A DNA stretch of 64,000 nt from Streptococcus cristatus (GTDB lineage Bacteria; Bacillota; Bacilli; Lactobacillales; Streptococcaceae). The position numbers were made by a program, and so were the translations under genes. Position 1 is the first letter of the stretch. Every line of letters begins with the position of its first letter. The notes under the pieces were generated by a model. The model was not told the origin of the DNA and did no database searches. It saw only the letters and a list, made by a program, of their open reading frames with translations. The stretch lies in contig NZ_KQ969062.1 in NCBI RefSeq assembly GCF_001578775.1, positions 1,163,510 through 1,227,509 of the forward strand, in the 5' to 3' direction. This document shows, in pieces, positions 27,123 through 49,665 of this stretch.

Positions 27123-28193
27123 CTAGAGCTTGTCCAGAGCATTCTTTTGCTCATCATTGACAATGTGGGTATAGAGGTCCGTTACCTGAGTGCTAGCATG
27201 CCCTAGCTGGTGACTGACGAGAACTTGAGATTTTGTTGCATCATACAAACGTGTAGCAAGTGTATGGCGGAGTTTGTGAGGCGTCACCCGCACCTTGAAG
27301 TCCTCAGAATACTTAGCTACCATCTTTTCAACACTGGAAGCATCGATTCGATTAGGAGTGCCGCGGTATTCCGTCAAAAAGAAGGCTGTATCAGTCTTTT
27401 CGGCCTTGTATCGCTTGCTCCGAATGTTTAGATACTCTTCTAAATAGGGCTTGGCAAAAGCAGCAACATTGACAGAGTCCCTTTTCCCGCCTTTTCTTGT
27501 TACTTCAATGACCATCATTTTGAGATTGATGTCTTTTAGGTCCAGATTGACAGCTTCAGACAGACGAACACCAGAGGCTAGCAGCAAGGCAATGATGGCT
27601 AAATCACGTTCTTTGTTCTTGTTAAAAGAAGATAGGGCGCGATTAGAGAGTTTCTTAGGATACTCCGTATCGATATATTGGAGAAATCCCTCGGTTTCAT
27701 CTCCTAAAAATAGCTTCTGCTTAATATTCTCCGCACGAGCAGCCAGAGTTTCCTTTTTCTTCTTAGTAGCGACCTTCTTCATCACATTTCGATAGAAGTA
27801 GGGCTCCCCCTGCTCATTTTCCACTTCCTCAGTCAAATATTTGTAGAGGCTGGACAAAGCCGACAGAGTTCGGTTGATGGTTGTCTGGGAAACACCGTTT
27901 TGTATCGTGTTGGCATTGAGAAGTGGGCGCTCCCGTAAGTGTAGAATGAAAGCTTCCATATCTCTCTTGCTCATATTCTCCAAGACTGAGAGAGGAATCT
28001 CAGCAATTTCTGAAGCGTCAGATATACCAGAGTCTAAAACCCAGCGGAAAAATCGATCGTATTCTTTAAGATATTCGTATAAAGTTGTAAAACTATAAGG
28101 CACTGCCAGCTTAGACTGATAATATTCCAAAATGTACCAGGGCATAATCTGCTTCAGTTTATCAATTCGTTCCAATAAAATCTCGCGTTTCAT
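27123..28193 (-). CDS. xerS: Tyrosine recombinase XerS
   Basis: XerS is the single recombinase that resolves chromosome dimers at dif-SL in streptococci and lactococci. The 356 residues have an N-terminal SAM-like DNA-binding domain and the catalytic residues Arg in [14 protein letters not shown], and the nucleophilic Tyr in [15 protein letters not shown]. The dif site lies 55 bases upstream of its ATG, the standard arrangement, so it is chromosomal and not part of the adjacent mobile element. Confidence 0.96.
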
Positions 28194-28278: not shown

Positions 28279-28405
28279 GTTAGAGAGGAGATAGCCCTCA
28301 TAACTAAAAAAATTTTTTCCGCCAAAAATTGAAAAAATGTACTTTATTTCACGGTAAACTGAATTTTTTTAAAACCAAAACTTCCACTAAAAATGAACAT
28401 TATTA

Positions 28406-28440
28406 AAGTGAAAACTAAATTTTTTTCATTTGTATATTTT
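28406..28440 (+). repeat. Left direct repeat (candidate attL) of the mobile element
   Basis: This 35-bp segment beginning AAGTGAAAACTAAA matches 29 of 35 bases at 49224-49258 in the same orientation. Both copies have a TGTACTTTATTT motif upstream (28339-28350 and 49212-49223). Such repeats are expected where a tyrosine-recombinase element has inserted, but the exact crossover is unknown. The wider gap 28279-28549 holds no gene, only AT-rich end-like repeats. Confidence 0.5.
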
Positions 28441-28549: not shown

Positions 28550-29503
28550 TTACTTAAATGGAACAAAATGCTCTCGTTTACGTCTACGACCTTTACAAAT
28601 AATGCAAGGTTCCATGCTACGTTTTTCAAATAGAACTCTTTTCCTGATCATTTTTTTGTATCTATGATTAGGATTGTTTTGGCACTTCCACCAAACTCTA
28701 ATTTGACTTTTACCTGTTACTCTTTCCGGATTAGCAAGCAGTATATTGTTTAAATAATCCCATTCGCTCATTAGATGTAGATGCGTTTCTTTTAGATTAT
28801 TTTGAACTGCAGGAATTATCCGACCTGTGCAATTTGGACAAACATTATCTGTACTAGGTGGATTACTCTTCAGATATCGTTCTAAAACAACATTGAGTTT
28901 TTCTTTGAAATTACAATGACATGTATTACAATGCCAAAGATAGCGTTTATTAGATTTAGTATCTATTACTATTTCTTCCGTAGAAACATTATTCTCAACA
29001 TTCCACATACTATTCAAGTCAGGATAAAGATCTAGTAACGCGTTTAATCCCTTTAAGGGTTCTTTGTTACTACAATAAGGGCAACTATTTTTTACTTCCC
29101 GCCGTCTAGGAATCGAGCATAGGTATTCACCATGGCAGTTAGAGCAACACCACCAATATTTTTTAGTCTCAATGTCTGTTTGTGCAAGGAAAATAGGCAT
29201 TTTATTTTTCTCGCTCCACTCTTCAACCAAAATTGGTTCGTTGTGCAACGCATTGTTTTTGAAAATACTAGTTACCCACTCACAAAAGTTAGGGCAAGTT
29301 TGAAAATTTCGATTGCCTAGTTCAGTTCTTATAATCATTTCCTTAGGACTACAATCAAATTCGATACCACAACAAGGGCAGACCCAACTTACTAAATCAT
29401 TTGACTTGTGCCAGTAATCATCAAGGTTACGGGTGTTTTTAGCATTCCAGAAATCTTTTAGAAATCGGTGTGTTTTCTCTAGTGTATTGAATCCTCTTAG
29501 CAT
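28550..29503 (-). CDS. Zinc-ribbon protein, C-terminal part after an in-frame amber codon
   Basis: 317 residues with repeated pairs of cysteines of the DUF4379 style: WVCPCC, CPNFC, WWCCSNC, CPYC, WHCNTC, CPNC, WWKC and CIIC. Each unit has a W-C-x2-C knuckle followed by a CPxC knuckle, joined by segments like PLKGLNALLDLYPDLNSMW. The reading frame continues directly from the upstream ORF (29513-30403) with only a TAG between them, so this is probably the second half of one protein. If it is made at all, it needs suppression or restart at ATG 29503. The function of DUF4379 proteins is unknown; they are common on mobile elements. Confidence 0.7.
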   Translation of the reverse strand: MLRGFNTLEKTHRFLKDFWNAKNTRNLDDYWHKSNDLVSWVCPCCGIEFDCSPKEMIIRTELGNRNFQTCPNFCEWVTSIFKNNALHNEPILVEEWSEKNKMPIFLAQTDIETKKYWWCCSNCHGEYLCSIPRRREVKNSCPYCSNKEPLKGLNALLDLYPDLNSMWNVENNVSTEEIVIDTKSNKRYLWHCNTCHCNFKEKLNVVLERYLKSNPPSTDNVCPNCTGRIIPAVQNNLKETHLHLMSEWDYLNNILLANPERVTGKSQIRVWWKCQNNPNHRYKKMIRKRVLFEKRSMEPCIICKGRRRKREHFVPFK

Positions 29504-29512
29504 TTTCTGATC

Positions 29513-30403
29513 CTAGCAGTAAGGACAACTATGATTGTCCTTATCCAGAACCTTACAAGAATAAGTGCCTTCGCAGTTCGTACAATTCCACCTTACGTCT
29601 ATATTTGAAAGAGTATCGACCTGACATTCAGCTATTTCATTCTCAGCAGACCATTCATTCAAGTGCTGTGAGTGCAGAAATGAAAGAGGAGGGGTCATCA
29701 TCTGTTCTGTTATTGGCTTGTTGAATGAAGCATGACACTCTGTACAGTAGTATCCCGTCCTTTTTATTCGTGCAAACAACCTATCTATTGATAGTTCAAA
29801 TTCATGCTGACAAGTATCACACTTCCAATGGTGATGTAGGGTAACATTCTCGTTTAGTTTTAAATTCTTAAACTCTTTTTGATTGAGTTCGTCGTGGTAA
29901 ATTTTCGTAAGATTAGGATAAACTTCATGATAAAAATAGTGATAAGACCATTCATTACAATCAATATGAAAGAGCTCCCCTTCTTCTGAATGTAATAATT
30001 TGGGGTTCATTGCGGCGCCCCTCCAGATAACTTGGCACGTAGGGCATTTAAACTGAAAAACTCGTTTAGAGTTAAACTTTTCCTTGCTCAACTTTTCCTT
30101 AATCGTATCTATATCCTCGTGGTGGAAGTCAAGATAGCGTATTAAATCAGGGAACATCGCAAGAATGCTATTTTTATCCTTTTTAAAAACTTTCCCCATC
30201 TTGCAACAAGGGCAAAACTGTTTTCTTCTACGACAAGTTTTAAACACGTCATTAATTCGTGCCTCCCAACTATAAGAACAGTGTGAACAAAGCCAATGAG
30301 CATATTGAACACTCGTGGCTTTTGTTAATTCGATATCCAATTTATTTCGCTCAAAGTCCCAGTACATCAGCAACTCGGGAACTTCCTTAATTGATTGAAC
30401 CAT
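29513..30403 (-). CDS. Zinc-ribbon protein, N-terminal part ending at an amber codon
   Basis: 296 residues with knuckles WLCSHC, CPCC, FKCPTC, WKCDTC, YCTEC, WNCTNC and a final CPYC directly before TAG (29513-29515). In the internal repeat of the downstream half, the same CPYC is followed by S-N-K-E-P-L-K-G-L-N. After the stop here the frame reads D-Q-K-M-L-R-G-F-N, so the stop replaces one residue of a continuous unit. ATG 30403 has AGAAGGAAG upstream; an earlier in-frame ATG overlaps the previous gene. It is last in the recombinase operon. Confidence 0.72.
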   Translation of the reverse strand: MVQSIKEVPELLMYWDFERNKLDIELTKATSVQYAHWLCSHCSYSWEARINDVFKTCRRRKQFCPCCKMGKVFKKDKNSILAMFPDLIRYLDFHHEDIDTIKEKLSKEKFNSKRVFQFKCPTCQVIWRGAAMNPKLLHSEEGELFHIDCNEWSYHYFYHEVYPNLTKIYHDELNQKEFKNLKLNENVTLHHHWKCDTCQHEFELSIDRLFARIKRTGYYCTECHASFNKPITEQMMTPPLSFLHSQHLNEWSAENEIAECQVDTLSNIDVRWNCTNCEGTYSCKVLDKDNHSCPYC

Positions 30404-30419
30404 GGGTTTGTCTTCCTTC

Positions 30420-31121
30420 TTAGTACTTTGTGGCGTTATCCAACATATTTTTAATATTAACAACCTTACTTTGGCTTCCTGACTGACTTATCGTTTCTTT
30501 GCTGAAATCGATCTCCGTGTCAACTGTAATAATCTGACTTGCTAAAAACTCGTCTGTGATGACTTTGGTGTCAGATTTTAACAATCCTTCTTCCTTGAGC
30601 AGTTCTTTTGCAATTTCAGGATAGACAGATGTTTTCAGAATAGACCGTAGCTTCACTACTTCATCCTGGAGCTCTTTCCTCTCTTTTTCATCATTTTCTG
30701 CCTTTTCAGTCTTTAACTCTAGTTTCTTGTTTATTTCTCTTAGCTTGTCTGCCTCATCTTTAAATTGCAAAGCAACTTCTACAATTCGTTTGTAGTGGCG
30801 ATTTAATTCCATCAATGTTGCTTTTATGGCTCTTGGAGTACGGTTAGTCCTTATAAAGTTTTCGACATCTAAGGTTTTGTAGGTAATAATAGTTTGGAAA
30901 TCTTCATCATTACTCTTCGCTTTTAAATCCGCCAGCAGACCTCTGAATGCAACGTTCCGTCTGATGGTAGTATCTGCAACCTTCGAATACCCATTTGTTC
31001 TTAAGTGTTCACCGAACTGAGGTAGTTTAAAAAGATTGATGTTGCTGTTACACTTCTTCTCTAAATAATGATCAAACATCTCAATCAATTCTTCGTCAGA
31101 TATGAACTTCTTCCTTGCCAT
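30420..31121 (-). CDS. TnpC-like coiled-coil partner of the recombinases
   Basis: A 233-residue protein with an N-terminal helical, possibly DNA-binding segment (residues 5-65) and a long charged coiled coil near 100-165 (KLREINKKLELKTEKAENDE). Position and type match the small third protein (TnpC) of Tn554-family transposons, which helps orient integration. AGGAGG precedes ATG 31121, and the start overlaps the end of the upstream recombinase by 26 bases. Confidence 0.65.
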   Translation of the reverse strand: MARKKFISDEELIEMFDHYLEKKCNSNINLFKLPQFGEHLRTNGYSKVADTTIRRNVAFRGLLADLKAKSNDEDFQTIITYKTLDVENFIRTNRTPRAIKATLMELNRHYKRIVEVALQFKDEADKLREINKKLELKTEKAENDEKERKELQDEVVKLRSILKTSVYPEIAKELLKEEGLLKSDTKVITDEFLASQIITVDTEIDFSKETISQSGSQSKVVNIKNMLDNATKY

Positions 31122-32772
31122 ATTTTTCCTCCTCATTAGCTTGTTTTGCGGTTAAATATTCTTGATATGAGTGACTAACAGCACTCAGTTTTAATAGGGC
31201 TTCACCGATGTCCTCTATATGTCCTTTACCTTGTCGCACTCGCTTAATAGCTTGATCTACTAGTAAGGCTTCCTGATCGACAGATTTTTTAAAGGTCTTA
31301 TCCATCGTGAAGTAGTCTTTCCCAACTTTTCGATAAAAGGGACAACTAGTACAAGCTCCCAACTCTGCATGATTGCTGATGACCTTCAAACAGTCTGAGA
31401 AGTCTCCAATTGCGTAGAGAGGAGAATAACACCGTCCTTTGTTATCTAATTGTACATAGGCTTTTCCAACAGTATACTTGCGTTGAGCTTTGCTAATCTC
31501 GTAGGTGGTTTGTGAACTGGTGAGCTTACGATAGACTTGATAACTCCGACATTCGATGAATTGGCTAAGGTTAGAGAAATAGTGAGAGGAGGTTGTAACA
31601 TTATCATGTCCAGCAAGAAGCATAGCTGTCACTGGACTACTACCTTCAGCAATCAGGTTAATCATGGCAATATGTCGTGTATCACCAATGTGGATGAAAT
31701 TAATTTCATTGTCCTTCAATCGACTAGGCGGATTGAGGTAGTGAACGTGATGGCCATATTGCTCAGAGATAACCTCATTGAAAAAGTATTTGAGAATGGT
31801 ATTTAGATTGGTATAGGTCAAAAAACGGTTGTTTATCCCCGTTCTCCTCTCCCACCGTTTATAGTGGGTATCCGTCACAAAGAGGGTATCCAGTTTTGTT
31901 GAAGCTAAGTCTTTGGTTAAATCCAAATAGTGCTGGATGGTTAAAGCTAACTTTTCAGGAATTTCATAGGTGGTCAAGTAATAGTCTTCTGCTATCTTGT
32001 GAGAGACACCTTTTTCCTTCCCTTTGAGATTGTTACGCCTCAGGGTTAAATAATACTTCCCTTGCTCTTCAGACAAGCACTCTCTCTGAGTTAGTAAGAA
32101 CTCTCGAGGACGCAAAGGAACCACAGCTGTAATCTGCCACCAGAGGTACAAAGGGTAATAGAACAGTCGTTCTTCATCAGGTAGTTGTTGCTTCCAGTAA
32201 TCATTTAAAATGTCGTTGAAAGTGAAATAAGATTGAAACTGAGCTAACTGACGTTGTTTCCGTGGTTTCAGTTCGTACTGACTGGTAATCAAATTATCTA
32301 GCTGCTCCAGAAATTGGTTCATGATAAGTGTTTCATAACAAGGCAGGCTAGAGAAAAAGTCAATGCAGAGGGTTGGTGACGTTATTTTAATATCATAGAC
32401 ATCTTTTAGGATATTCTGCTTGGTCTCTTTGACCAATCGCTTTATATCACGTAAGAAAGCCTGCAGGGATACTAATACATGCTGATCCATTGATAGGATA
32501 ATGAAACTCTTTAAGTAATTCACAAAAATCTCGTAACCTAGACCAAATATGGGTTCATAAACTCTCTTGTAATGAAACAGATTGATGTTAAAAAGAAAGC
32601 TGATATTGGCATATTCATTGGTAGTCTGCCATTTATGGGCATCAAAGTCCGACGTTAGAATGATTCCCTTTTCTACATAATCAATAAAATACTCCTGTGC
32701 TTGATGTACTATAGTATCATCGAAATCTGAAATCGTTTTAACTGTTCGGAATAATTTAGCTTGATGGTTCAA
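31096..32772 (-). CDS. Tyrosine recombinase, third of the trio
   Basis: 558 residues. The catalytic half shows Arg221 in VVPLRPREF, the DTRH segment with Arg366, His389 in LLAGHDN, and Tyr398 in TTSSHYF. The usual first His of the HxxR box is not at its normal place (Gly363). A cysteine pair follows near the C-terminus (CTSCPFY), a likely zinc site. The start is TTG in a TTGA overlap with the upstream gene, so it depends on coupled translation. Confidence 0.82.
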   Translation of the reverse strand: MNHQAKLFRTVKTISDFDDTIVHQAQEYFIDYVEKGIILTSDFDAHKWQTTNEYANISFLFNINLFHYKRVYEPIFGLGYEIFVNYLKSFIILSMDQHVLVSLQAFLRDIKRLVKETKQNILKDVYDIKITSPTLCIDFFSSLPCYETLIMNQFLEQLDNLITSQYELKPRKQRQLAQFQSYFTFNDILNDYWKQQLPDEERLFYYPLYLWWQITAVVPLRPREFLLTQRECLSEEQGKYYLTLRRNNLKGKEKGVSHKIAEDYYLTTYEIPEKLALTIQHYLDLTKDLASTKLDTLFVTDTHYKRWERRTGINNRFLTYTNLNTILKYFFNEVISEQYGHHVHYLNPPSRLKDNEINFIHIGDTRHIAMINLIAEGSSPVTAMLLAGHDNVTTSSHYFSNLSQFIECRSYQVYRKLTSSQTTYEISKAQRKYTVGKAYVQLDNKGRCYSPLYAIGDFSDCLKVISNHAELGACTSCPFYRKVGKDYFTMDKTFKKSVDQEALLVDQAIKRVRQGKGHIEDIGEALLKLSAVSHSYQEYLTAKQANEEEKYGKEEVHI

Positions 32773-34622
32773 CTGACTAACTCCTTTATAATCTCTTCGT
32801 AGTCGCTCAATACTTCTTCGCCGTATTGGTCAGACAAGGCTTGTAACATTTCTGTTAAACAGGGCTTCAACTGGTTCTCTAAAATAGCGCGAATTTTCCC
32901 TTTCTCCAAGTCATTCTGTACCTTGCCATATTGTCTATTCAGCCGATTAAACTCGCCAATCAAGAGTAACAAGGTTGAGGTTGTCTGTAACTCATAGGTA
33001 CAGCCTACACAGTGCTGTCTATCATCATAAGGACAAAATCTTCCTAGAGCTGACAAGAGACACATACTCTCGGCTTGCTTAGAAAAAGCCTCACTATTTC
33101 CAATACGATGACAAACTGAGAGAAGTTGCTTGGGTTCCATTTGCTCCTCTACTACCACTTTCAGAGCCTTCTGAGACCTAGTATCTGCTCGCACACTAAG
33201 TTCCAGGGTCTTTTCAATCTCAGCGGGTGATAGGTTTAATGTCTTAATCATTTTGGTTTGCTGATTAGGACTCAACTCTTTGTATTTGCCTCTCGTTACA
33301 ATGGTTAAAAGCATAGACGGCACCATTGATAAAACCCCTCGTTCAAAAAGTTCCTTTGCTACCATTTCAGGTTGTAATTGACCTAATTGAGCATCTTTGA
33401 GGTAGGCTGTGGTAGTTTGAGCAAACTCATCGTAAGATCCCTTGTGGCTTCTAGCTAGGGCTGCTAAGAAGTAACCTTTGATATTAAGCTCGGATTTTTC
33501 ATTTAAGACATCATCAGCTAGCATAGCAACAGCTTGTAAATAGGACTTATTAGCTGATCGACTGCTAAAATCCCTCTCTAGGAAAAACTCCCCAATTTCC
33601 TCGCCCATATAACGGCTAATCCGCTCATAATCAGTAATTTTACGAATGAGTGGACCATCTATACCATTTTCTTCGAAAATATGATAGTGAGCCTCACATA
33701 CGGCTAAAAGAGTTCCTATTAACACCTGACAGCTTTCTGGTACATGAAACTTTAACTGACTGACATTAGAAGCTCTTTGTGTTTTGTTAGGTGTGATATT
33801 GAGATAGGTTAAACGGGTCGTAATGCTAAGAAGCGTTTTTCTTGCCTCGCTAGTATCCCAGGTCCCTTCTTTGACAGCAGCTAGCACTTCTTCAGGCTCT
33901 CTCGGTAATTGTGGATGTCCAATTCTTTCTAAGTCAGTTGTTCTAAGGGCACAAATGAAATGGAGGGCTAGGTACAGCCATGTGTCTGCATAGTCTTTAG
34001 AGGAAGCCGCTTGAGCTAACATCTCATTTTCTTGTATATAGTTGTCATTAAAGAGATAAAACATCAATTTTAGGTAATCATTCAGCTCATAAGCACCATT
34101 TTTATCTTCCAAGGTATATCGACTGGTCATCTCATAAGTATTGCGATAGCGAGTCACTCCTTTTTGCAAAAGCCAAGAGGCAAAAGCAATACAGTCGTCG
34201 CCATGGTTTTTGCTGAGAATTTCTGTAGCCTGCTCAATCAGTTTCTCCAACTCTTTATCATTGTACAAGAATAGATCCTTAGTTAGATAATAGGCTAGAA
34301 AGTCCTGTAGGTAAAACTGACTGGCTTCATCTAAGTTGTTAAGCTTAACGTACTCTTTGAAATACTTCTGTGTAGCCGAGTATCTTTGTTTCAAGATAGT
34401 TGAGATAGATTTTACTCCTAGTTGTGCAGATAGGTAGCCTTCTAGCTTATCTTTTAAAACTGCTGCATCTATTTCTGATATGGTGAAATTACTCCTATTG
34501 ATAGATAACCCAAACCAAGCATTATCTAAGAGAAACTGACTGACCATTTCTCTAACTTCCGGAGTGTCTTTGTCTAAGTCAATCAAAACTTTCTCCAGAA
34601 TATCTTTTATAAAAACGCTCAC
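32769..34622 (-). CDS. Tyrosine recombinase-like protein, second of the trio (TnpB-like)
   Basis: 617 residues, close in size to Tn554 TnpB. ALRTTDLERI near 220 is a good box I arginine, and AALARSHKGSYDEF...TAYL near 390-415 may hold the later His and Tyr. The HxxR box is not clear, so it may be a degenerate or accessory recombinase. A cysteine/histidine cluster (CPYDDRQHCVGC) lies near 545-557. GTG start overlaps the upstream stop (GTGA). Confidence 0.72.
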   Translation of the reverse strand: MSVFIKDILEKVLIDLDKDTPEVREMVSQFLLDNAWFGLSINRSNFTISEIDAAVLKDKLEGYLSAQLGVKSISTILKQRYSATQKYFKEYVKLNNLDEASQFYLQDFLAYYLTKDLFLYNDKELEKLIEQATEILSKNHGDDCIAFASWLLQKGVTRYRNTYEMTSRYTLEDKNGAYELNDYLKLMFYLFNDNYIQENEMLAQAASSKDYADTWLYLALHFICALRTTDLERIGHPQLPREPEEVLAAVKEGTWDTSEARKTLLSITTRLTYLNITPNKTQRASNVSQLKFHVPESCQVLIGTLLAVCEAHYHIFEENGIDGPLIRKITDYERISRYMGEEIGEFFLERDFSSRSANKSYLQAVAMLADDVLNEKSELNIKGYFLAALARSHKGSYDEFAQTTTAYLKDAQLGQLQPEMVAKELFERGVLSMVPSMLLTIVTRGKYKELSPNQQTKMIKTLNLSPAEIEKTLELSVRADTRSQKALKVVVEEQMEPKQLLSVCHRIGNSEAFSKQAESMCLLSALGRFCPYDDRQHCVGCTYELQTTSTLLLLIGEFNRLNRQYGKVQNDLEKGKIRAILENQLKPCLTEMLQALSDQYGEEVLSDYEEIIKELVS

Positions 34623-35887
34623 ACTTTACCTCCTTTGCTAAATAGATCATCTGCTCTCCATCTCATGTAAGCAAATACTCCATCATTGACCTGTTCATAT
34701 TGTTTAGCGATTTCACCTTTGTTCTGTAAATAAACCCAGGCACTATCTGGCGACTTGTCTCCTCTTGCTGACATTAATTCACTAATTTCTGACACGCCAG
34801 ATAGGACTAACTGGGTCGTGTACCAATGCCTGAAGATATGAGGAGAGATATTGTGTTCCTGCAAGAGCTGACCAAAAAATACCACTTCTGCATTATCTGA
34901 TCTCAAATAAATTGGTATCATCTCCTCTCGAATAATTCGACGAAAGCGTTGATAATAAACATCATAGGTGAGAGCTTTCCCTCGTTTGTTTAGATTCAGT
35001 GGTCCATAATCTTTCTCATATTTCTTACCCTCCAGATAGCTCATATAGTCGTTATATACTTCTAAAAATATTTCAAGAAAGATATAAGGCACTGCCTGCA
35101 TCCGTTCTTTCTTGATTCGTCCTGTGGGCCTTAAATCACTCCTCAAAGGCATTTCTTTTCGTAGATCGATCTCTACCTTGAAGGTCTCGCCTTCACTTTG
35201 GTGAAACAAAACACCTGCTCCTAGCGGGCTATCCTCTCGCCTAACATTACAAGCCTCAGATGGTCGTAAGCCTACAAAAGCTCCCAGTGCTACCACCATG
35301 AGTAAGTCTTTGTGATATTCTGCAATGTGGGCAAACAACATTTCAAAGGCAGCGTTTGGCATATCTCTAAAAATAGATTGTTCGGTCTGACTATCATCCA
35401 CATAAACATCAAATTTAGGTTCTTTTCGCTTAATCAATCTCCCTCGTCTATTAGTGAAGGTGGTTATTTCATAAAGATCACTAGGACATAAAATTGCCTT
35501 GTCTTTGCGTTCCTTAAGGTAAAGGGTTAGAAAATCAAGTACGGTATTGATACAAATTTTAACCGTAGATTTCTTTCGGTGTCTAGAGTTTCCTGGAAGA
35601 GTTCCTAAGCCATAATTCATCAGAAAATCTTTGACCATATCAAGAGTTAGATGATTTAAGCTAGTAATCCCCTTTTCACCAAAGACATAATTGAGAAATT
35701 TGATGACATAAGAAAATCGCTTATTTCCATCATCAGAAATTGATTTAATCTTCGAGGATGACTTTACATAGCGATGAAAATTTGTAAACTGCAAGCTACT
35801 GTCAGAGGATTTGATGACAATAAATTGCTTCGTCACAATGTGACTATCACCTAAAATTAAAGAATGTTTATAGCTGACAAATTTCAT
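34619..35887 (-). CDS. Tyrosine recombinase/integrase, first of the trio (TnpA-like)
   Basis: 422 residues with a full catalytic set: Arg208 in FVGLRPSEA, His350 and Arg353 in HIFRHW, and Tyr387 in DSAWVYLQ. The N-terminal part has the core-binding four-helix region. A strong AAAGGAGG site precedes the ATG. It is the first gene of an operon of at least five genes read away from the hdiR-like repressor. It is likely the main catalytic recombinase of the element. Confidence 0.88.
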   Translation of the reverse strand: MKFVSYKHSLILGDSHIVTKQFIVIKSSDSSLQFTNFHRYVKSSSKIKSISDDGNKRFSYVIKFLNYVFGEKGITSLNHLTLDMVKDFLMNYGLGTLPGNSRHRKKSTVKICINTVLDFLTLYLKERKDKAILCPSDLYEITTFTNRRGRLIKRKEPKFDVYVDDSQTEQSIFRDMPNAAFEMLFAHIAEYHKDLLMVVALGAFVGLRPSEACNVRREDSPLGAGVLFHQSEGETFKVEIDLRKEMPLRSDLRPTGRIKKERMQAVPYIFLEIFLEVYNDYMSYLEGKKYEKDYGPLNLNKRGKALTYDVYYQRFRRIIREEMIPIYLRSDNAEVVFFGQLLQEHNISPHIFRHWYTTQLVLSGVSEISELMSARGDKSPDSAWVYLQNKGEIAKQYEQVNDGVFAYMRWRADDLFSKGGKV

Positions 35888-35928
35888 AGTTCCTCCTTTG
35901 GGTTAATTATTTAGTTTATTTTTTGCGT

Positions 35929-36013
35929 ATATTATAACTTTTTGTTAAAATATTTGTAAAGAAAAAAGTTAACAAATTGTAGTATATCAAATAAAGTTAA
36001 TTAACAAAAGTTA
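35929..36013. promoter_or_regulatory. Shared divergent promoter/operator region of recombinases and hdiR-umuC
   Basis: The minus strand has TTTACA (35960-35955), 18 bases, TATAAT (35936-35931) for the recombinases. Three related motifs lie here: AACTTTTTGTTAA at 35936-35948, AAAAGTTAACAAATT at 35964-35978, and AAAGTTAATTAACAAAAGTTA at 35993-36013. The first touches the recombinase -10 box and the last lies just before the hdiR ribosome site. They are good candidate operators for the adjacent LexA-like repressor. Confidence 0.6.
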
Positions 36014-36030
36014 CAGAAGAGAGATTAATT

Positions 36031-36714
36031 ATGTTTTCAGGTCAACGTTTAAAAACACTTCGTAAAGAGAAAAAAATGAGCCAAGAAAAACTCGGCTCAC
36101 TTCTTAACATTTCTAAAGTAGCGGTATCTAATTGGGAAAATGGAAAGTCTTTCCCTACCCTTGATAATCTCAATGAATTGGCGAAGGTTCTAGAAGTGGA
36201 TACCGACTACTTCACTGAGCACGGAGAAATTATCCGTATCTACAGCCGTTTGAACAAGTCAAACCAGCACAAGGTTGTAAACTACTCATCCGAATTACTG
36301 GAACAACAAATTTCAGATGATGATAACATCGTTGACCTATATAGTTACAAAACTTACGAAGGTCTATCAGCTGGAACAGGCTACTCCTACTTCAATGATG
36401 GAGATTATACTCTTACCTACTCAACAGAAAATATCTCTCATGATTTTGCCTCCTGGGTTGTTGGAGACTCAATGGAGCCAGAACTGCCAAATGGAGATGT
36501 GGTCTTGATTAAGCAATCCACTAACCTAGATGATGGAGATATTTACGCTGTTGAGTTTAACGAACAAACCTATGTGAAGAAAGTGTACCGTCATAAAACC
36601 TATCTCCGTCTTGTTTCTATCAACGAGAACTACGATGATATATTTGCACCTTATGAAGAAAACCCTCGCATTATCGGAAAGATTGTGGGGCACTTCACAC
36701 CGATTGAACAGTAA
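36031..36714 (+). CDS. hdiR: LexA/HdiR-like self-cleaving repressor
   Basis: 227 residues: an N-terminal Xre-type helix-turn-helix (residues 1-60, QEKLGSLLNISKVAVSNWE) and a C-terminal S24 peptidase domain. The cleavage site looks like SAGTGY (Ala-Gly), the catalytic Ser is in GDSMEPELPNGD, and the Lys is in YVKKVYR. Such proteins cut themselves when RecA is activated by DNA damage. It heads the umuC operon and is divergent from the recombinase operon, so it probably represses both. Confidence 0.88.
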   Translation: MFSGQRLKTLRKEKKMSQEKLGSLLNISKVAVSNWENGKSFPTLDNLNELAKVLEVDTDYFTEHGEIIRIYSRLNKSNQHKVVNYSSELLEQQISDDDNIVDLYSYKTYEGLSAGTGYSYFNDGDYTLTYSTENISHDFASWVVGDSMEPELPNGDVVLIKQSTNLDDGDIYAVEFNEQTYVKKVYRHKTYLRLVSINENYDDIFAPYEENPRIIGKIVGHFTPIEQ

Positions 36715-36725
36715 AGGAAATTTTT

Positions 36726-38132
36726 ATGGGATACATTGACTATTCTAGGGAACCACAATCGGACATTACCTTTATAGACATGAAATCCTTTTATGCAAGT
36801 GTGGAGTGTGTCGCAAGGGGGTTGAATCCTCTTCGAACCTCTCTATGTGTTATGAGCCGAGCAGATAACAGTGCTGGGCTTATACTTGCAGCTTCTCCTG
36901 TGTTTAAGAAGGTTTTTGGAAAAAGTAATGTTGGACGCTCCTATGACCTCCCTTTTGATATCAAGACGAGAAAGTTCAATTACCAGAATGCCTGGAAACA
37001 AGGGATAGAGGTTACTCCCCAATACAAATCTTTTATCGAGAATTGGGCAAGAAGAACCCTCATTGTTCCACCAAGGATGGAGCTGTACATCGAGAAGAAT
37101 ATCGAAATCCAACATATCTTTCAAAACTTCGCATCACCGGCTGACATCCTCCCCTATTCTATAGATGAAGGTTTTATTGACTTGACCAACTCTTTGAACT
37201 ACTTTATACCTAATCATTCATTGTCTCGTAAGGATAAGTTGGATAATCTATCGGCCCTCATACAGCGTGAAATTTGGAGACAGACAGGCATTATTTCCAC
37301 TATAGGTATGAGTAATGCCAATCCCTTACTTGCAAAGCTAGCCCTTGACAACGAGGCTAAAAAGACCGTGACAATGCGAGCGAATTGGTCCTATGGAGAT
37401 ATTGAAACAAAAGTATGGTCTATTTCCAACCTCACTGACTTTTGGGGAATCGGAAGTCGGACGGAAAAGAGACTGAGAAAGCTAGGCATCACTTCTGTAA
37501 AAGAGCTTGCGAATAGCAATCCTGACCTGCTTAAAGAGGAATTTGGTAAGGTAGGTGTTCAGCTTTGGTTCCATGCAAACGGTGTGGATGAAAGTAATGT
37601 CCACACCCCCTATAAACCTAAATCTCATGGACTAGGTAATTCTCAGATACTGCCTCGTGACTATCACAATAGGCGAGAAATTGAAATCGCCCTTGCAGAA
37701 ATGGCGGAAAAAGTGGCTCTTCGCCTGAGGAATGCTCATAAAAAGGCAACAGTCGTTTCTATTCACATCTCCTACTCTAAGATGGAGATGAAAAGTTCCA
37801 TCAATGCACAAATGAAGATAGAGCCCGCTAGTCTCCCTAAAACGATGGTTGACCATGTTCTGAACCTCTTTAGGAGTAAATACACCTCAGGAGCTATTAG
37901 ACAGATTGGAGTATCTTATGGTGGCTTTGTGGACGAAAACTATACATTACTCTCTCTATTTGATGATGTAGAGGCATTAGAGAAAGAAGAGAAGCTACAA
38001 GTTGCTGTAGACGCTATACGAGAAAAATATGGCTTTTTAGCCATTCAAAAAGGAACCGTCCTGATGGAAGGTTCCCGTAATATTGAAAGGAGTAAACTTG
38101 TCGGTGGACACTCTGCCGACGGCGTAGATTAA
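36726..38132 (+). CDS. umuC: Y-family DNA polymerase, UmuC/ImpB type
   Basis: A 468-residue error-prone lesion-bypass polymerase. It has the N-terminal metal residues in FIDMKSFYASVE, the central SIDEGFIDLT acidic pair, the helix-hairpin-helix LTDFWGIGSRTEKRLRKLG, and the little-finger domain. It lies directly behind the hdiR-like repressor, so it should be DNA-damage inducible. This operon type is common on streptococcal integrative elements and plasmids. Confidence 0.93.
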   Translation: MGYIDYSREPQSDITFIDMKSFYASVECVARGLNPLRTSLCVMSRADNSAGLILAASPVFKKVFGKSNVGRSYDLPFDIKTRKFNYQNAWKQGIEVTPQYKSFIENWARRTLIVPPRMELYIEKNIEIQHIFQNFASPADILPYSIDEGFIDLTNSLNYFIPNHSLSRKDKLDNLSALIQREIWRQTGIISTIGMSNANPLLAKLALDNEAKKTVTMRANWSYGDIETKVWSISNLTDFWGIGSRTEKRLRKLGITSVKELANSNPDLLKEEFGKVGVQLWFHANGVDESNVHTPYKPKSHGLGNSQILPRDYHNRREIEIALAEMAEKVALRLRNAHKKATVVSIHISYSKMEMKSSINAQMKIEPASLPKTMVDHVLNLFRSKYTSGAIRQIGVSYGGFVDENYTLLSLFDDVEALEKEEKLQVAVDAIREKYGFLAIQKGTVLMEGSRNIERSKLVGGHSADGVD

Positions 38133-38136
38133 AACT

Positions 38137-38505
38137 ATGATTGATCGTTCCTATCTACCATTTCAGTCAGCTAGAGAGTATCAAGATACAGGGATGCAGA
38201 AATGGATGGGATTTTTCTTATTCGAACATACAACTGCTCTTGTAGATGATACCAACAGGATGACTTATCACACTCATCTATCACCTGAGCAAAAACTACT
38301 GCTACTTAGTCAGCTATACTCCAATCAGATAAATGCCCAGATTATAGCTCAGGAAAAGAATGAATTGAAGATTTATACTGGTACAATACCCACTATCACT
38401 CCTCAGTATATCTTGATAAAAACAACTGAAGGGCATAAACGCATTTTACTGGAAGATATTACTACTATTGAGCTACTGGAGGATATCTTGTATGAATCAG
38501 CTTGA
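38137..38505 (+). CDS. YolD-like protein of the umuC operon
   Basis: 122 residues beginning DRSYLPFQSAREYQDTGM, the family's usual opening. It is found behind UmuC-type genes in many Firmicutes, where a UmuD-like partner role has been suggested. It starts five bases after the umuC stop and overlaps the next gene by 14 bases. Confidence 0.75.
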   Translation: MIDRSYLPFQSAREYQDTGMQKWMGFFLFEHTTALVDDTNRMTYHTHLSPEQKLLLLSQLYSNQINAQIIAQEKNELKIYTGTIPTITPQYILIKTTEGHKRILLEDITTIELLEDILYESA

Positions 38506-38800
38506 ATTCCATCGTAATGAATTACAAATAGATTATTTTAGCGATAGCTACCGTCGCTTTGAGTCTGATTTCTACCACTACTCTGCCCTAGATACTCCTT
38601 TGACTTTCTTGATTGATGATATCCTTCTGTTTATGTTTAAATCAAAGAAGGACTATTTTAAATTAAACAAGGAGAACGCAAAGGATCATCAAGACCACTA
38701 TTTCATCTTTTCTATCGAAACGCTTGACGAACAGAAGTCAATAAGAAAGTTTGCTTATAAGAAAGTTGTTTGTAGCGTAAAATATAACAAAAAGGAGTAG
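38492..38800 (+). CDS. DUF5960-type small protein of the umuC operon
   Basis: 102 residues from ATG 38492, which has GGAGGA eight to nine bases upstream inside the previous gene; an earlier TTG in the same frame is less likely. It resembles the small protein that ends the umuC operon on other streptococcal elements. Function is unknown. Confidence 0.7.
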   Translation: MNQLEFHRNELQIDYFSDSYRRFESDFYHYSALDTPLTFLIDDILLFMFKSKKDYFKLNKENAKDHQDHYFIFSIETLDEQKSIRKFAYKKVVCSVKYNKKE

Positions 38801-43974: not shown

Positions 43975-44432
43975 TATTCGTCTCCCTTATCTTCTCTAGG
44001 GTTATAGTGCATCGCTATCCAAAGTTTCTTATCAAAATCAGATAGTTCTTTTTTCTTTGGATAAACGCAGTCATTCAAATCAGGGAATTTGAGACTATAC
44101 TTTTTCTCAAAAAAGTTTTGAAACTCCTCTTTATTCTCTGCGACATCAATCAAGGCTTCTAGCTCTACCATGTGTTTAGCGATTGCTTTTCTATCTACTT
44201 TTTTGAGGCTTTCTTTCAACGCATCGTAGACACAAGTCTTTGTTAGTTGAGCGTAAAAAGAACGATGGTTAGTAACAAAATCAAAACTGTACTTCTTATT
44301 CCAGAATTTCGTATACTTGTCATAAAATCTATCAGAAAGACTAACCTGATACCCAATTAGTTTACTATCAACTCTTCGAGAAATAGACCTTTCCAATTCA
44401 AAATGTAAATCATTTAGTGTATTAGTAGCCAT
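43974..44432 (-). CDS. Passenger protein behind the transposase, unknown
   Basis: 152 residues, charged and helical; I recognise no family. It overlaps the end of the transposase gene by 11 bases and touches the next start, so it is translated as part of the same operon. A role in transposition or with the nucleotidyltransferase is possible. Confidence 0.55.
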   Translation of the reverse strand: MATNTLNDLHFELERSISRRVDSKLIGYQVSLSDRFYDKYTKFWNKKYSFDFVTNHRSFYAQLTKTCVYDALKESLKKVDRKAIAKHMVELEALIDVAENKEEFQNFFEKKYSLKFPDLNDCVYPKKKELSDFDKKLWIAMHYNPREDKGDE

Positions 44433-45339
44433 AAATCAGCTCCCTATATTTAGTACGGACACAGGCATTTGAAAGTAAGAGATTAAAACGCTGACTATCC
44501 GAATAATCACGAGTATTGTAACGGAAAACAAATTCATCTACATAGTCTTGAAGATATTTCTTAGACCATGAATGATAAATTCCTAAAACGCCACGTTTCA
44601 ATCCAGCCCAAAAGCCTTCAATCGTGTTAGTATAAACATCACCTTGTACATATTCACGAGCACCGTGATTTACAAAGTTATGTTGATACATCTTAGCCAC
44701 TTTATTATAACCCAGCCATTCGTCTGTGTAAAGTTGAGCAGTCTCTTTGACATATTTGACGATTTGCTCGGTCAATGTTTTTGTCTTTGTATCTGGCACA
44801 TGATGAGCATTGACTTTTCCTTGGCGTTGTACCATGCCTACTACAGCAGATTTATCTTTCAAAGAACGTCCTTGTGCGTTTTTGACTTTCTTAGAATTAT
44901 GGCGGTTCTTGTTTTTACCGCCAATATAGGTTTCATCAACTTCTACAACATCATCAAGACCATTGCCGTTTTCAGTACCAAAGCATTTGCGAATACGTTC
45001 CAACATAAACCAAGCTGTTTTTTGCGTAACACCTATGTCTTTTGATAGTTGCACAGACGAAACGCCTTTTTTATGGGAAGTTACAAGCCAAATTGCAATG
45101 AACCATTTACGCAGTTCAATCTTAGTATTATCAAAAAGAGTGCCAGTTTTGACATTGAAGTATTTTCCTGTATTCTTGCAACGATATTTATTACCTTTGC
45201 ATTTATATACTTTTGAAGTAGCATCAAAAGGGCTGACAATCACATCACCCCAAATCATATTTTCTAAATGGTCTATACATGACTGTTCGTCAGGAAAAGC
45301 AGATTGTAAATCGAATAATGACTTAAATTCAAACTTCAT
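44422..45339 (-). CDS. IS1595-family (ISXO2-like) transposase
   Basis: 305 residues. The N-terminal zinc ribbon shows CKGNKYRCKNTGKYFNVKTG (near 47-66), a helix-turn-helix follows, then the catalytic domain with Asp135 in EVDETYIGGK, Asp206 in YTDEWLGY and the TNTIEGFWAGLKRG block (Asn238, Glu241). This is the ISXO2/IS1595 pattern and fits the inverted repeats and the 8-bp duplication around it. It appears intact, so the element may be active. A consensus promoter drives it. Confidence 0.93.
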   Translation of the reverse strand: MKFEFKSLFDLQSAFPDEQSCIDHLENMIWGDVIVSPFDATSKVYKCKGNKYRCKNTGKYFNVKTGTLFDNTKIELRKWFIAIWLVTSHKKGVSSVQLSKDIGVTQKTAWFMLERIRKCFGTENGNGLDDVVEVDETYIGGKNKNRHNSKKVKNAQGRSLKDKSAVVGMVQRQGKVNAHHVPDTKTKTLTEQIVKYVKETAQLYTDEWLGYNKVAKMYQHNFVNHGAREYVQGDVYTNTIEGFWAGLKRGVLGIYHSWSKKYLQDYVDEFVFRYNTRDYSDSQRFNLLLSNACVRTKYRELIYGY

Positions 45340-45734: not shown

Positions 45735-48005
45735 ATGGTCATCTCACTAATTGAAAATAAAGTCTCTGAAACGAAGACAGAAAATATCTTTAGAGAATTT
45801 TATGAACCAAATACTTTTTTAGAGAAAAGTGCTATTCCTGATGTATACGGATTTAAATCAAAACAAGGTACAGACTATAAGGGTTTTCCTGATTTTTTCT
45901 TAGATAAACAATCCTTTGCAATTATTGTTGAAGCAAAAGCCTTAAAACATTCCTCCGCCGAAGCTGAAGTAAAGTGGTATATGGAAAATAATCTATTGCA
46001 TAATGGGATAATCGGCATAGCAATATCAGGTCAAGAACTGAGCCAGATTAAAGTTACCTATTATTACAAGGAAACTCCTCAATCTGGTATTATTCCATTT
46101 CATATAAAAGATAAACTACTTAGCCTTAAAAACTTAGAAAAACTATTCATACAAAAATTTAAAGGAGAAATTGTAAGTGAATCGGAATTAACTAATATAC
46201 TCAAACAGTTAAATGAAATATTCCATGCTGGAGGAAAAGTTCGAGATACAGATAGAAGTTTATTTTTCTCAGGTATATTGATAGCTTTGCGGAACAACAA
46301 TTTCAGAAACCAATATAAGCATACTACTGCACCTGATGTTGAAGATACCGCTACTACAGATGCAACCATATTAGAAGCTCATAATTTAAACAAGTCTCTA
46401 TTAGATGCTATAGAAACAGAACTAAAACGAAAAGTCAATAATCTTTCAAAAGAGTTTAATTGGAGAGATAGATTTTCGTTTATTTCAAATATAGACTATC
46501 ATTTAGAAGACTATATAAATCTTATCTCTCTTATAGAAAATAAAATTTTCGTTCCATTTATTAACAATGAAAAATTAGATATTTTAGGAAAAGCCTATAA
46601 AATATTCTTATCACGTTCAGGTCAAGCTGAAAATAAGAATATTATTTTAACTCCAGACCATATAAAATCCTTGATGGTAAAATTAGCTCGTCTCAATGTC
46701 GATGATGTTGTCATAGATACTTGTATGGGGTCAGGAGGTTTCTTAATGGAAGCACTTGAAATTTTAAGTAGCTTAGCTCAAGATGACCTTGAGAAACAAG
46801 ATTATATTAGACAAAATCAGTTGATAGGTTTTGAAAACGATTCTGTATTATTCGCATTAGCGTGTTCAAATATGTTCTTGCATGGTGATGGTCGCTCTAA
46901 TTTGATGTTCCGGAGTAGTTTGCTATCAGACACCTCGCAAGCAATAGTGAATAATAGAGATGCAATTCTTCTCGAAAAAATCAGAGAAAAGAAACCAACA
47001 AAGTGTATAATCAATCCTCCCTACGAAAAAACGAGCCCTATAGATTTCACTAAACAGGCTATTGAATATCTTGAACCTAATGGTAAACTCATTATCATTA
47101 TGCCTACACCAACACTTAGAAAATATCAGGAGGTAGATGGAAAAACAGAGGAAATTTTACGAATGGCTAAATTGGATTTTGTAATCAAAATGCCATTTAA
47201 CCTATTTACTGAACAAGGTCGGTCGGTGAACACATCAATTTTTGGATTTACAAAGACAAAGCACAATGAAAATGACGAAGTATTATTCTACAACTTAGAA
47301 GAAGATGGCTTTGAATCTATTCAGCATAAAGGAAGAGTTGATGTTGCCAATCGGTGGAATGACATTGAAAATCAAATCATAGATGCTATTCAAAATAGCA
47401 GAGAAATCAAAGGCATATCAGAGAAACGAAAAATATATAAAAACTCTGTCTTAAATTGTTCAGGCTACATAGAACTGGAAGAAAACACATCAAAAACATT
47501 AGTGAAATTTAACGATATTTTTGAAATTTCTCCAAAAGGTAGTCTTGCCTCAACCAAAAATGACCCTAGCGGAAAATATGATTTTATTACCGCTTCAGAT
47601 GAGTGGAAAAAACATTCATCTTATGATTATGATACAGAAGCCCTTGTATATGCACTTTATGCAGCAGGTTCTTTAGGGAAATCTCAATATGTTAACGGAA
47701 AGTTTACACCAAGTAATTTATGTGTTGTTCTGACACAAAAAAATGAGAAATACCCTGTAAATTTGAAGTTTTATAACTGGTATCTTGAAGCCATTCGTAA
47801 ACAACTTGTATCTGATTTAGCAGACGGTACATCTAAATTAACTATTCCAAGAGATGACTTGCTACCTGATTACTACATAGAATATTTCCCCATCGAGGAG
47901 CAGGATAGATTTGTGGAAAAATATATAGTGCCTTATGAAAAACTACAACAAAAGCTGAAATTAGAAGAAGAAAAACTCAAAGATGAAATGTCTTCCCTAA
48001 TTTAA
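45735..48005 (+). CDS. Single-chain restriction-modification enzyme: nuclease, N6-adenine methylase, specificity domain (type IIG-like)
   Basis: 756 residues. The N-terminal domain has a PD-(D/E)xK nuclease-like pattern: KGFPDFFL, then FAIIVEAKA (near 51-67). The centre is an HsdM-type methylase: motif I DTCMGSGGF near 328, motif IV NPPYEKTSP near 425. The last 160 residues end in a coiled coil (EKLQQKLKLEEEKLKDE) and look like half of an HsdS specificity protein. One protein could thus cut, methylate and recognise DNA. GAGGTGG lies four bases before ATG 45735 and inside the leader's +1 frame, so expression probably follows the repeat count. Target sequence is unknown. Confidence 0.82.
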   Translation: MVISLIENKVSETKTENIFREFYEPNTFLEKSAIPDVYGFKSKQGTDYKGFPDFFLDKQSFAIIVEAKALKHSSAEAEVKWYMENNLLHNGIIGIAISGQELSQIKVTYYYKETPQSGIIPFHIKDKLLSLKNLEKLFIQKFKGEIVSESELTNILKQLNEIFHAGGKVRDTDRSLFFSGILIALRNNNFRNQYKHTTAPDVEDTATTDATILEAHNLNKSLLDAIETELKRKVNNLSKEFNWRDRFSFISNIDYHLEDYINLISLIENKIFVPFINNEKLDILGKAYKIFLSRSGQAENKNIILTPDHIKSLMVKLARLNVDDVVIDTCMGSGGFLMEALEILSSLAQDDLEKQDYIRQNQLIGFENDSVLFALACSNMFLHGDGRSNLMFRSSLLSDTSQAIVNNRDAILLEKIREKKPTKCIINPPYEKTSPIDFTKQAIEYLEPNGKLIIIMPTPTLRKYQEVDGKTEEILRMAKLDFVIKMPFNLFTEQGRSVNTSIFGFTKTKHNENDEVLFYNLEEDGFESIQHKGRVDVANRWNDIENQIIDAIQNSREIKGISEKRKIYKNSVLNCSGYIELEENTSKTLVKFNDIFEISPKGSLASTKNDPSGKYDFITASDEWKKHSSYDYDTEALVYALYAAGSLGKSQYVNGKFTPSNLCVVLTQKNEKYPVNLKFYNWYLEAIRKQLVSDLADGTSKLTIPRDDLLPDYYIEYFPIEEQDRFVEKYIVPYEKLQQKLKLEEEKLKDEMSSLI

Positions 48006-48948: not shown

Positions 48949-49192
48949 AAAAATGTACTTTATTCCAACTCATTATAACCACTCCATAACCACCAAAATA
49001 TACAATTGAACCTGCTACCTAATCACCATAAATCACTACTCAAAATGTACTTTATTCAACCTTAAAATAAAGTACATTTCATTTATAAAGTACATTTTTT
49101 AGAGAGTGTACATTACGCCTTAAACTCAGACGAATTAAGTGTTTATCTACTATCTAGGGAAAAGTACAAAAATTTTCAGTTTTTTTTAAATG
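48949..49192. repeat. Subterminal TGTAC repeats at the right end of the element
   Basis: Gene-free AT-rich stretch with the motif AAAATGTACTTTATT near 48951 and 49043 and its inverse near 49064-49078 and 49083-49098, plus GTACAAAAATTTTCAGTTTT near 49166. Such clustered direct and inverted motifs are what recombinase arm-binding sites look like. Confidence 0.5.
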
Positions 49193-49223
49193 CTGATCTT
49201 ATACTGTAAAATGTACTTTATTT

Positions 49224-49258
49224 AAGTGAAAACTAAAAATTTTTCAATTGTACATTCA
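49224..49258 (+). repeat. Right direct repeat (candidate attR)
   Basis: AAGTGAAAACTAAAAATTTT and 15 further bases, 29 of 35 identical to 28406-28440 in the same direction. Confidence 0.5.
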
Positions 49259-49264
49259 TACAAA

Positions 49265-49292
49265 AACACGGCTCATGAATCATGGCCGTGTT
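49265..49292 (-). terminator. Terminator for the small membrane-protein genes
   Basis: AACACGGC (49265-49272) pairs with GCCGTGTT (49285-49292). On the minus strand it runs into TTTTTG, fitting the genes at 49335-49851. Confidence 0.75.
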
Positions 49293-49652: not shown

Positions 49653-49665
49653 AACTTTTTACTTT

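Follow-up and report, generated by a model that had tools for sequence, protein, structure and literature searches.

Two divergent operons on a streptococcal transposon

The sequence analysed here, referred to as the window, is a 64,000-nucleotide (64-kb) stretch of Streptococcus cristatus DNA (NZ_KQ969062.1). It contains one transposon of 21,913 bp (~22 kb; positions 28300-50212), and within this element two operons diverge from a 143-bp gap (35888-36030) that is devoid of any open reading frame (ORF) of at least 60 amino acids, namely, a recombinase operon (30420-35887, minus strand), which is oriented towards the left end, the nearer of the two, and an hdiR-umuC SOS operon (36031-38800, plus strand). 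This layout had been proposed in a preliminary description of the sequence, and it was confirmed. On balance, we favour the reading that the element resembles the strand-biased circularizing integrative elements (SEs) and Tn554, and that its recombinase operon shares the HdiR-governed SOS control region. The larger finding is a family of such streptococcal transposons, found beside difSL, the site of the dimer-resolution recombinase XerS, and equipped with exchangeable control modules. The genes and control features are the following.

30420-31136, minus strand: TnpD238, fourth gene of the recombinase operon, an ORF in the position of TnpC/Srap/GinD
31096-32772, minus strand: TnpC558, large tyrosine-recombinase-like protein; R221, R366, H389 and Y398 assigned by eye
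32769-34622, minus strand: TnpB617, placed where SEs have the inactive Tfp protein
34619-35887, minus strand: TnpA422, tyrosine recombinase; R208, H350xxR353 and Y386 assigned by eye; PHROG integrase, E 1.6e-12
35902-35919, no strand: candidate operator T, GTTAATTATTTAGTTTAT, in the recombinase 5' untranslated region; left half present in 3/3 hdiR-linked loci
35931-35960, minus strand: recombinase promoter TTTACA-18-TATAAT, 11/12 consensus; -10 box at 35931-35936
35956-35973, no strand: candidate shared operator S, GTAAAGAAAAAAGTTAAC, of the form GTNA-N10-TNAC; covers the recombinase -35 box and the candidate hdiR -35 box
35967-35976, plus strand: motif M, AGTTAACAAA (motif 2 below), overlapping S
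35969-35997, plus strand: weak candidate hdiR promoter TTAACA-17-TAAAGT, 9/12 consensus
35994-36014, plus strand: motif H (around motif 3 below), over the candidate hdiR -10 box and start
36031-36714, plus strand: hdiR-like repressor of 227 amino acids; helix-turn-helix (HTH) and S24 peptidase
36726-38132, plus strand: umuC, Y-family polymerase; Pfam IMS domains, DMKSFY at residue 18 and SIDE at residue 145
38137-38505, plus strand: small gene, PHROG 16307, with the place and length of the YolD-like gene of phage phi1207.3
38468-38800, plus strand: last small gene, PHROG 16386, Pfam DUF5960; same place in phi1207.3

The preliminary description had recognized a recombinase trio. The recombinase genes are indeed there, but as a four-gene set, in which TnpA422, TnpB617 and TnpC558 are followed by a fourth protein of 233-238 amino acids. 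TnpA422 matches the NCBIfam XerA-like family at 6.8e-9, which is under the family cut-off, and a PDB profile search with TnpA gave no match. No HxxR motif was found in TnpB617. TnpC558 has no His at the usual HxxR place and was without a match in Pfam, and TnpD238, whose relatives are 46-56% identical, had none in Pfam, NCBIfam or PHROG at E 0.001. Profile-versus-profile comparison of TnpA, TnpB and TnpC, on very shallow alignments, gave no mutual link; the TnpB and TnpC alignments exclude locus L048 (genome G040), which has a stop codon. The AlphaFold models of TnpB617 (predicted local distance difference test, pLDDT, 49) and TnpC558 (pLDDT 56) were unusably poor.

The repressor has the parts expected of the HdiR/LexA-like S24 class: an XRE-type HTH, an S24 peptidase, a cleavage dipeptide, a Ser and a Lys. 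Its previously noted Ala-Gly cleavage site and Ser/Lys pair hold as Ala114-Gly115 and Ser147, together with Lys183 of a VKK motif, which we take to be the catalytic Lys by analogy with Lys156 of LexA. UmuC matches 129 phage records, 20 of which are 80-90% identical; for the best records the identity is 81-82%. The gene order, repressor, UmuC, YolD-like protein and small ORF, is that of phi1207.3, which adds two small genes between the repressor and umuC and whose HdiR is 41% identical to that of the window; the phi1207.3 UV-resistance operon is compared with Tn5252/Tn5253 in the available text of PMC4260502. According to the part of PMC8565304 at hand, HdiR regulates umuC genes in lactococci and streptococci, in L. 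lactis through RecA-triggered self-cleavage, in agreement with the preliminary description, in which HdiR/LexA-type repressors are cleaved after DNA damage. HdiR control of umuC is thus established biology in relatives, and SOS control of the polymerase operon in the window is likely.

Candidate operators between the two promoters

The -35 boxes of the recombinase promoter and of the candidate hdiR promoter lie back to back, 8 bp apart; promoter-like matches in the scanned stretch number three, against 1.4 +/- 1.2 in shuffles. Three related motifs had been reported around these promoters, and they withstood scrutiny: GTTAACAAA-like matches with at most one mismatch occur at 35941-35949 (minus strand, motif 1), 35968-35976 (plus strand, motif 2) and 36000-36008 (plus strand, motif 3). 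Three such matches are reached by 18 of 5000 dinucleotide shuffles of the gap, and this is the sole triple within 68 bp in the whole 64 kb; window-wide, GTTAACAAA is not enriched (24 matches observed at the same tolerance, 27.0 +/- 5.6 expected). The cluster is therefore real but modest. Motif 1 does not lie over the recombinase -10 box, as had been stated, but in the spacer between the -35 and -10 boxes, whereas motifs 2 and 3 fall on the weak candidate hdiR promoter.

Intact divergent hdiR genes adjoin the recombinase genes in three loci, namely, those of the window, G039 and G270, and these allow the region to be compared. First, site S stands at the same place in all three (GTAAAGTGAAAACTTAAC in G039, GTAAAGTAAAAAGTTAAC in G270), and 13-15 of its 18 letters match GTAAAGTTATAACTTTAC, the operator of some other HdiRs. 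Of 28 hdiR genes unlinked to the trio, 21 have the underlying form, GTNA-N10-TNAC, within the 160 nt that precede them, compared with 69 of 1500 shuffled upstreams; nine of the 21 are perfect palindromes, and most lie 28-37 nt before the start. The gene of phage phiD12 has GTTAAGTTATAATTTAAC. The gap of the window matches this form once, at a place that differs from the usual spot just before the repressor start. At the promoters of the 20 loci in which a leader precedes tnpA (see below), GTNA-N10-TNAC was found in none, five matching elsewhere in the 450 nt examined, and the degenerate locus of G011 has none. Second, T reads GTTAATTATATAATTAAC in G039, a perfect palindrome, and GTTAATTATAGACTTAAC in G270, with 7/9 pairs. 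Third, TTAACAAA of motif M is identical in 3/3 hdiR-linked loci, and AAAGTTAATTAACAAAAG of motif H is identical over 18 bp in G039 and differs in G270. Judged from this conservation, motif 2, as part of S, is the strongest of the three motifs and motif 1 the weakest. The better candidate for the shared operator of the preliminary description is S, over both -35 boxes, and not motif 1, which is not tied to HdiR.

A wider motif H regulon was sought in the same genome and rejected: one exact match and one with two mismatches were found, and with up to three mismatches there were eight, against ten for the backwards control.

These data also bear on the explanation that the GTTAACAAA motifs and S, T and H are meaningless background of AT-rich promoters. 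The absence of window-wide enrichment, the failure of motif 1 to follow HdiR and the occurrence of the S form in 142 of 5000 shuffles of the gap all speak for it, but it does not account for the local cluster, for S and M in 3/3 loci or for the 18 identical bp of H in G039, and we give it little credence.

A structured leader replaces hdiR in most relatives

In total, 24 tnpA loci were collected from 22 genomes. Four are without a leader and have hdiR adjoining tnpA, namely, those of the window, G039 (HdiR 82% identical, tnpA broken), G270 (HdiR 47% identical, no umuC) and G011 (degenerate). The remaining 20 carry a conserved leader of ~330 nt between a similar-looking promoter and tnpA (for example, L174:1178-1540, minus strand; L160:8140-8503, plus strand; L163:7990-8347, plus strand). 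A DNA search with the leader matched 19 of 279 Streptococcus genomes, that is, 18 tnpA genomes and G214, with a partial match of 75 bp. Since no intact hdiR was found upstream in the 18 leader genomes (6 kb examined; 1.2 kb in G096 and 0.35 kb in G208), the leader and an adjacent hdiR are mutually exclusive in this sample.

Folding of the leader gives a long 5' domain and then a terminator-like hairpin with a U run after it. Its alignment comprises 18 of the 20 loci, omitting one S. ovis copy and G227, and merging identical rows leaves 16 distinct sequences; 12 of 72 pairs are doubly changed, against 1.8 in shuffles and at most five when the partners are slid. A few divergent leaders contribute most of the double changes, and further pair types are not in excess (30 versus 30.3). 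At gathering thresholds, Rfam gave no family over six loci. Twelve of the 20 leader loci keep a remnant of hdiR, lacking the HTH, within 1 kb upstream of tnpA, and two more have a scrap 4.3 kb away. Because of these pieces, the ancestor of the remnant-bearing lineages probably had hdiR there, and the recombinases would have outlived it.

With 18 of 22 tnpA genomes carrying the leader, the recombinases are not generally HdiR-dependent. This brings in a rival explanation, by which the SOS operon is the only one that HdiR governs and is cargo of the ordinary kind, as it is on Tn5252/Tn5253 and phi1207.3, while the recombinase promoter works independently and just happens to stand back to back with it. 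It is consistent with the persistence of the recombinase genes in those 18 genomes without an intact upstream hdiR, with the decay of T in the window and the independence of motif 1 from HdiR, and with the fact that a similar operon is cargo in phages in which a gene other than a recombinase precedes the repressor. However, in G270 an hdiR without umuC adjoins tnpA on the same side and in the same orientation, S covers the recombinase -35 box in 3/3 hdiR-linked loci, and T retains the operator form in G039 and G270. We regard an independent recombinase promoter as a possible but less likely account.

Ends, surroundings and movement of the element

The surroundings of the two operons are the following.

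27123-28193, minus strand: xerS, dimer-resolution recombinase gene outside the element; NCBIfam NF003462, 559 bits
28248-28278, minus strand: difSL, intact 31-bp XerS site; single occurrence, 0 mismatches
28300-28318, plus strand: left end of the element, 5'-ATAACTAAAAAAATTTTTT, set by comparing the two S. ovis copies
28333-28426, plus strand: pair of 38-nt direct repeats, 56 nt apart, 79% alike (repeat search)
28550-29503, minus strand: ZnA, DUF4379 treble-clef zinc-finger protein, Pfam PF14311; relatives adjoin xerS
29513-30409, minus strand: ZnB, DUF4379 treble-clef zinc-finger protein, Pfam PF14311
39059-49652, no strand: cargo, with a cytosine methyltransferase, ATPase genes, a DUF6036 nucleotidyltransferase, a transposase, a restriction-methylation protein and small ORFs
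44422-45339, minus strand: IS1595-type transposase of the cargo
45735-48005, plus strand: restriction-methylation protein of the cargo
50193-50212, plus strand: right end of the element, GTACATAAATTTTTAGTTTT-3'; both S. ovis copies finish on the right with the same 20 bases

Streptococcus ovis DSM 16829 has two copies of the recombinase element (L116/L174 and L117/L175), which agree over 6,596 bp and 12,912 bp, with a 199-bp overlap, giving 19,309 bp. The points at which these copies diverge fix the element ends, ATAACCAAAAAAATTTTT on the left and GTACATAAATTTTTAGTTTT on the right. In the orientation of the window, copy 2 reads GAGTAAAGTTGTT AACTTT, element, TCTACA TTTTCCAT, and lies next to genes that Pfam assigns to mobilization, relaxase and ParA-like families; in G106 the homologous locus is uninterrupted and reads GAGTAAAGTTGAT TCTACA TTTTCCAT. 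It follows that the insertion consists of the element plus 6 bp and leaves the target hexamer on the right. The sequence of copy 1, which adjoins difSL, is GGACATTTT TCTACA, element, GTTAAG ATAACTGG; all four junctions differ, and the left hexamer of copy 1 equals the right flank of copy 2. Most simply read, these junctions would have copy 1 derive from copy 2, bringing 6 bp of flank with it; the opposite direction was considered and is overturned by the uninterrupted G106 site. This 6-bp exchange refers to a single copy pair, from a relative of the window copy. That copy 2, too, is inserted beside a dif-like site was considered and set aside: the best score there, 34, is reached by 1 of 500 shuffles, by 12 Markov sequences out of 2000 and by 5 of the 1048 sequence windows taken from S. 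ovis, at least two of the latter being the same place.

In the window, the left end lies 21 bp from difSL, whose half-sites are TTTCCGAAAA and TTTTCTTGAAA as printed in the accessible part of PMC5357621, and after the right end the chromosome picks up at ACAGAATTGAG. Element-free sites in G101, G017 and G008 pass from xerS-dif directly to o147-lip-ffh, where the window has 21.9 kb in between (the dif of G101 and that of G008 differ by one base). The left-end type of the window recurs beside difSL in other genomes, and in the eight loci measured the left ends lie 21-50 bp from difSL, with no single fixed base.

ZnA and ZnB are downstream of, and co-directional with, the recombinase genes. The 38-nt direct repeats near the left end are possible binding sites of the recombinases. 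The cargo between 39059 and 48843 includes methyltransferases, ATPases and the IS1595-type transposase; the best PADLOC match of the cytosine methyltransferase is DrmMII, and no relaxase or conjugation family was found among the scanned cargo proteins. Towards the right end (48950-50212), TGTACTTTATT repeats are clustered in both orientations, and a sequence resembling an element end lies internally, at about 49229; these are hints of a small element that has nested or accreted here. An end-like sequence is also seen to the right of GTTAAG at S. ovis copy 1, and apparent tandem end stubs lie beside difSL in L096, L097, L164 and L175, as if elements had inserted there repeatedly.

Distribution and decay

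Of 284 Streptococcus genomes, 22 have relatives of tnpA; for tnpB the count is 12 of 295 genomes of the order, in one of 74 genera, Streptococcus; the searches made did not reveal the family outside this genus. Plasmids had no match to the control region or to TnpA, and of 49 pattern matches in viral contigs none was a TnpA relative. A TnpB scan of named genomes, which detects close relatives only, gave 11 loci, in S. ovis (2), S. hillyeri, S. pseudopneumoniae (2), S. parasanguinis (3), S. sanguinis, S. infantis and Streptococcus sp. F0442. The gene xerS itself was matched in 118/118 Streptococcus genomes searched, and tnpA adjoins xerS and reads towards it in all 19 judgeable genomes of the 22, 17 directly, S. 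ovis by copy 1 (L117) and G209 by a second contig (L124), paired with the first by its length. As for the other three, the stretches of G227 and G208 end in the operon, and G166 has no xerS in the stretches examined. Element right ends occur near xerS in G070 (L108:10011) and G071 (L109:1908), where no tnpA was found; these are possible non-autonomous or excised copies.

HdiR-like genes are present elsewhere in most genomes (117/118 match at E 0.001) and could act on the recombinases at a distance. In L102, L103, L104, L112 and L113 (G018, G090, G043, G060 and G095), genomes with no tnpA found, xerS has another hdiR gene 109-562 bp away. That hdiR beside xerS is simply ancestral was considered, given hdiR within 17 kb of xerS in at least 12 genomes with no tnpA found (distances computed for 44 HdiR places among the matches listed), but rejected, as the trio-linked HdiRs separate in the tree. 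There they cluster with support of 100/99, although the branch of G270 is very long and the tree tool warns of false joins. The G270 HdiR (L159:11149-11835), with no umuC beside it, is possibly a non-inducible repressor of the recombinases.

Decay is common among the relatives: tnpA is broken in G039 and G011, tnpB and tnpC of G040 contain stops, and pieces of umuC or hdiR occur in many genomes. This invites the explanation that the window copy is itself a decaying, immobile relic, with a recombinase operon left open by chance and a functionless control region. Since the genes of both of its operons are open, both ends are present and the key residues of TnpA, UmuC and HdiR are in place, we consider a relic improbable. 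An intact cleavable repressor together with intact recombinase genes is found in the window alone of all the tnpA loci examined; therefore, damage control of movement would be confined, at best, to this lineage.

A working model and its weight

The favoured reading, an SE/Tn554-like transposon whose recombinase operon shares the HdiR control region, can be put as follows. The recombinases would be TnpA and TnpC, with TnpB their inactive partner and TnpD an accessory factor, and the set would move the element together with a 6-bp flank and insert it mostly beside difSL. HdiR dimers would bind S, covering the -35 boxes of both promoters, and probably also motif H on the hdiR side. Upon DNA damage, RecA filaments would trigger self-cleavage of HdiR at Ala114-Gly115, which would release hdiR-umuC and, to an uncertain degree, the recombinases. 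With T decayed in the window, control of the recombinases is predicted to be leakier there than in G039 and G270.

A number of observations weigh against this reading. Within the control region, motif 1 (TTTTAACAAA in the window) is absent from both G039 (TTCTATCAAA) and G270 (AGTATATCAAA), which bear hdiR, yet G040, a leader locus with no hdiR in the stretch examined, has TTTTAACAAAAA at its promoter position, and so the presence of motif 1 does not follow that of HdiR. As a palindrome, S is poor (4/9 pairs in the window, 6/9 in G039 and 5/9 in G270), its form is one that chance produces in shuffled gaps, and the right half of T has decayed in the window. As to the repressor, that of G270 lacks Ala-Gly at the cleavage place and has Arg instead of the catalytic Lys, by which it is probably unable to cleave, and other S24 repressors encoded in the same genome as the window might act at the control region instead. 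Beyond these, a leader rather than an intact hdiR precedes tnpA in 18 of 22 genomes, and the nearest relative, G039, has a broken tnpA. Finally, the S. ovis copies come from a draft assembly with a break inside tnpA, in which collapsed repeats may have inflated their identity.

It had been suggested that DNA damage switches on both mutagenic repair and movement of the element. For the polymerase operon this is likely, SOS control of umuC being established in relatives; for the recombinases, SOS control is plausible, unproven and specific to the lineage. A still broader proposal, of a streptococcal family that homes to difSL and is fitted with either of two interchangeable modules, a damage-cleaved repressor with a mutagenic polymerase, binding over both -35 boxes, or a terminator-ended RNA leader, is tentative and, taken as a whole, rather doubtful. 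If it were true, the dimer-making damage that brings XerS to difSL would also license movement. Likewise, if HdiR controls the window copy, a single signal would raise the mutation rate and element movement together. The two modules, exclusive in our sample, constitute a natural experiment on recombinase silencing.

Comparison with known systems

Elements with three tyrosine-recombinase-like proteins are poorly understood, and transposition of RIT and GInt elements had, to the knowledge of the authors of PMC10214605 (available text), not been reproduced in the laboratory; the S. ovis copy pair, with its readable 6-bp junctions, makes the reaction testable in a named strain. Literature on xerS/dif and mobile elements, on recombinase trios and on HdiR with integrases, covered through top-ranked titles and abstract openings of mostly open-access papers, did not describe the element. 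In a survey of streptococcal integrative and conjugative elements, XerS was removed by hand, and the portion of the text available names no difSL site (PMC4701971).

SEs (intA-tfp-intB-srap) are placed in Gammaproteobacteria and, like Tn554, have a 6-bp footprint in the available text of PMC10214605. With SEs as described there, our element shares the order of active recombinase, inactive recombinase-like protein, large recombinase and small fourth protein, the 6-bp donor flank carried to the new site, a target preference and a scanned cargo without a relaxase or conjugation family. This likeness is one of described order and motif pattern, but TnpC558 of the window lacks the usual first His. 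The element differs from SEs in its Streptococcus host, in the two treble-clef genes after the operon, in an operon that reads towards the nearer end and in its SOS or leader control. As the operon reads towards the left end, the polarity would agree with that of SEs and Tn554. With Tn554 (same source) it has in common the tyrosine recombinases with a small accessory protein, the 6-bp footprint and a Gram-positive host; however, Tn554 has tnpABC only, with no counterpart of TnpB617, which is second in the four-gene set of the window, and the element described here usually lies beside difSL.

The GInt elements (ginABCD; PMC5385486, as far as its available text goes) likewise have three recombinase-like proteins and a small fourth one, variable cargo and fixed sites. 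Their cargo follows ginD and their less complete protein is third, whereas in the window the cargo is upstream of the operon, on the tnpA side, and the inactive-looking protein is second. Membership in GInt was rejected on the position of the cargo and on the operon reading towards the nearer end. Border direct repeats, of 10-17 nt in GInt, reach at best 11/13 in the window (3 of 100 shuffles) and 10/12 in the S. ovis copies (13 and 12 of 100 shuffles); all of these best repeats lie in the AT-rich element ends, and none spans the flanks. The IMEX type, inserted at dif by the host Xer, also differs, in that difSL is intact, the insertion is 21 bp outside it and the element has its own recombinase genes.

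As for control, the HdiR-UmuC cassette of Tn5252/Tn5253 and phi1207.3, also known from S. uberis and L. lactis in the part of PMC8565304 consulted, is the same one-operon set on a mobile element, the difference being that the operon of the window diverges from, and adjoins, a recombinase operon. The closest parallels for damage and movement are the SOS-inducible streptococcal integrative and conjugative elements ICESt1/ICESt3 and TnSmu1, in which mitomycin C raises excision or circularisation according to the available texts of PMC3234194 and PMC10233336; unlike the element described here, these have cI and ImmR-type regulators and conjugative machinery.

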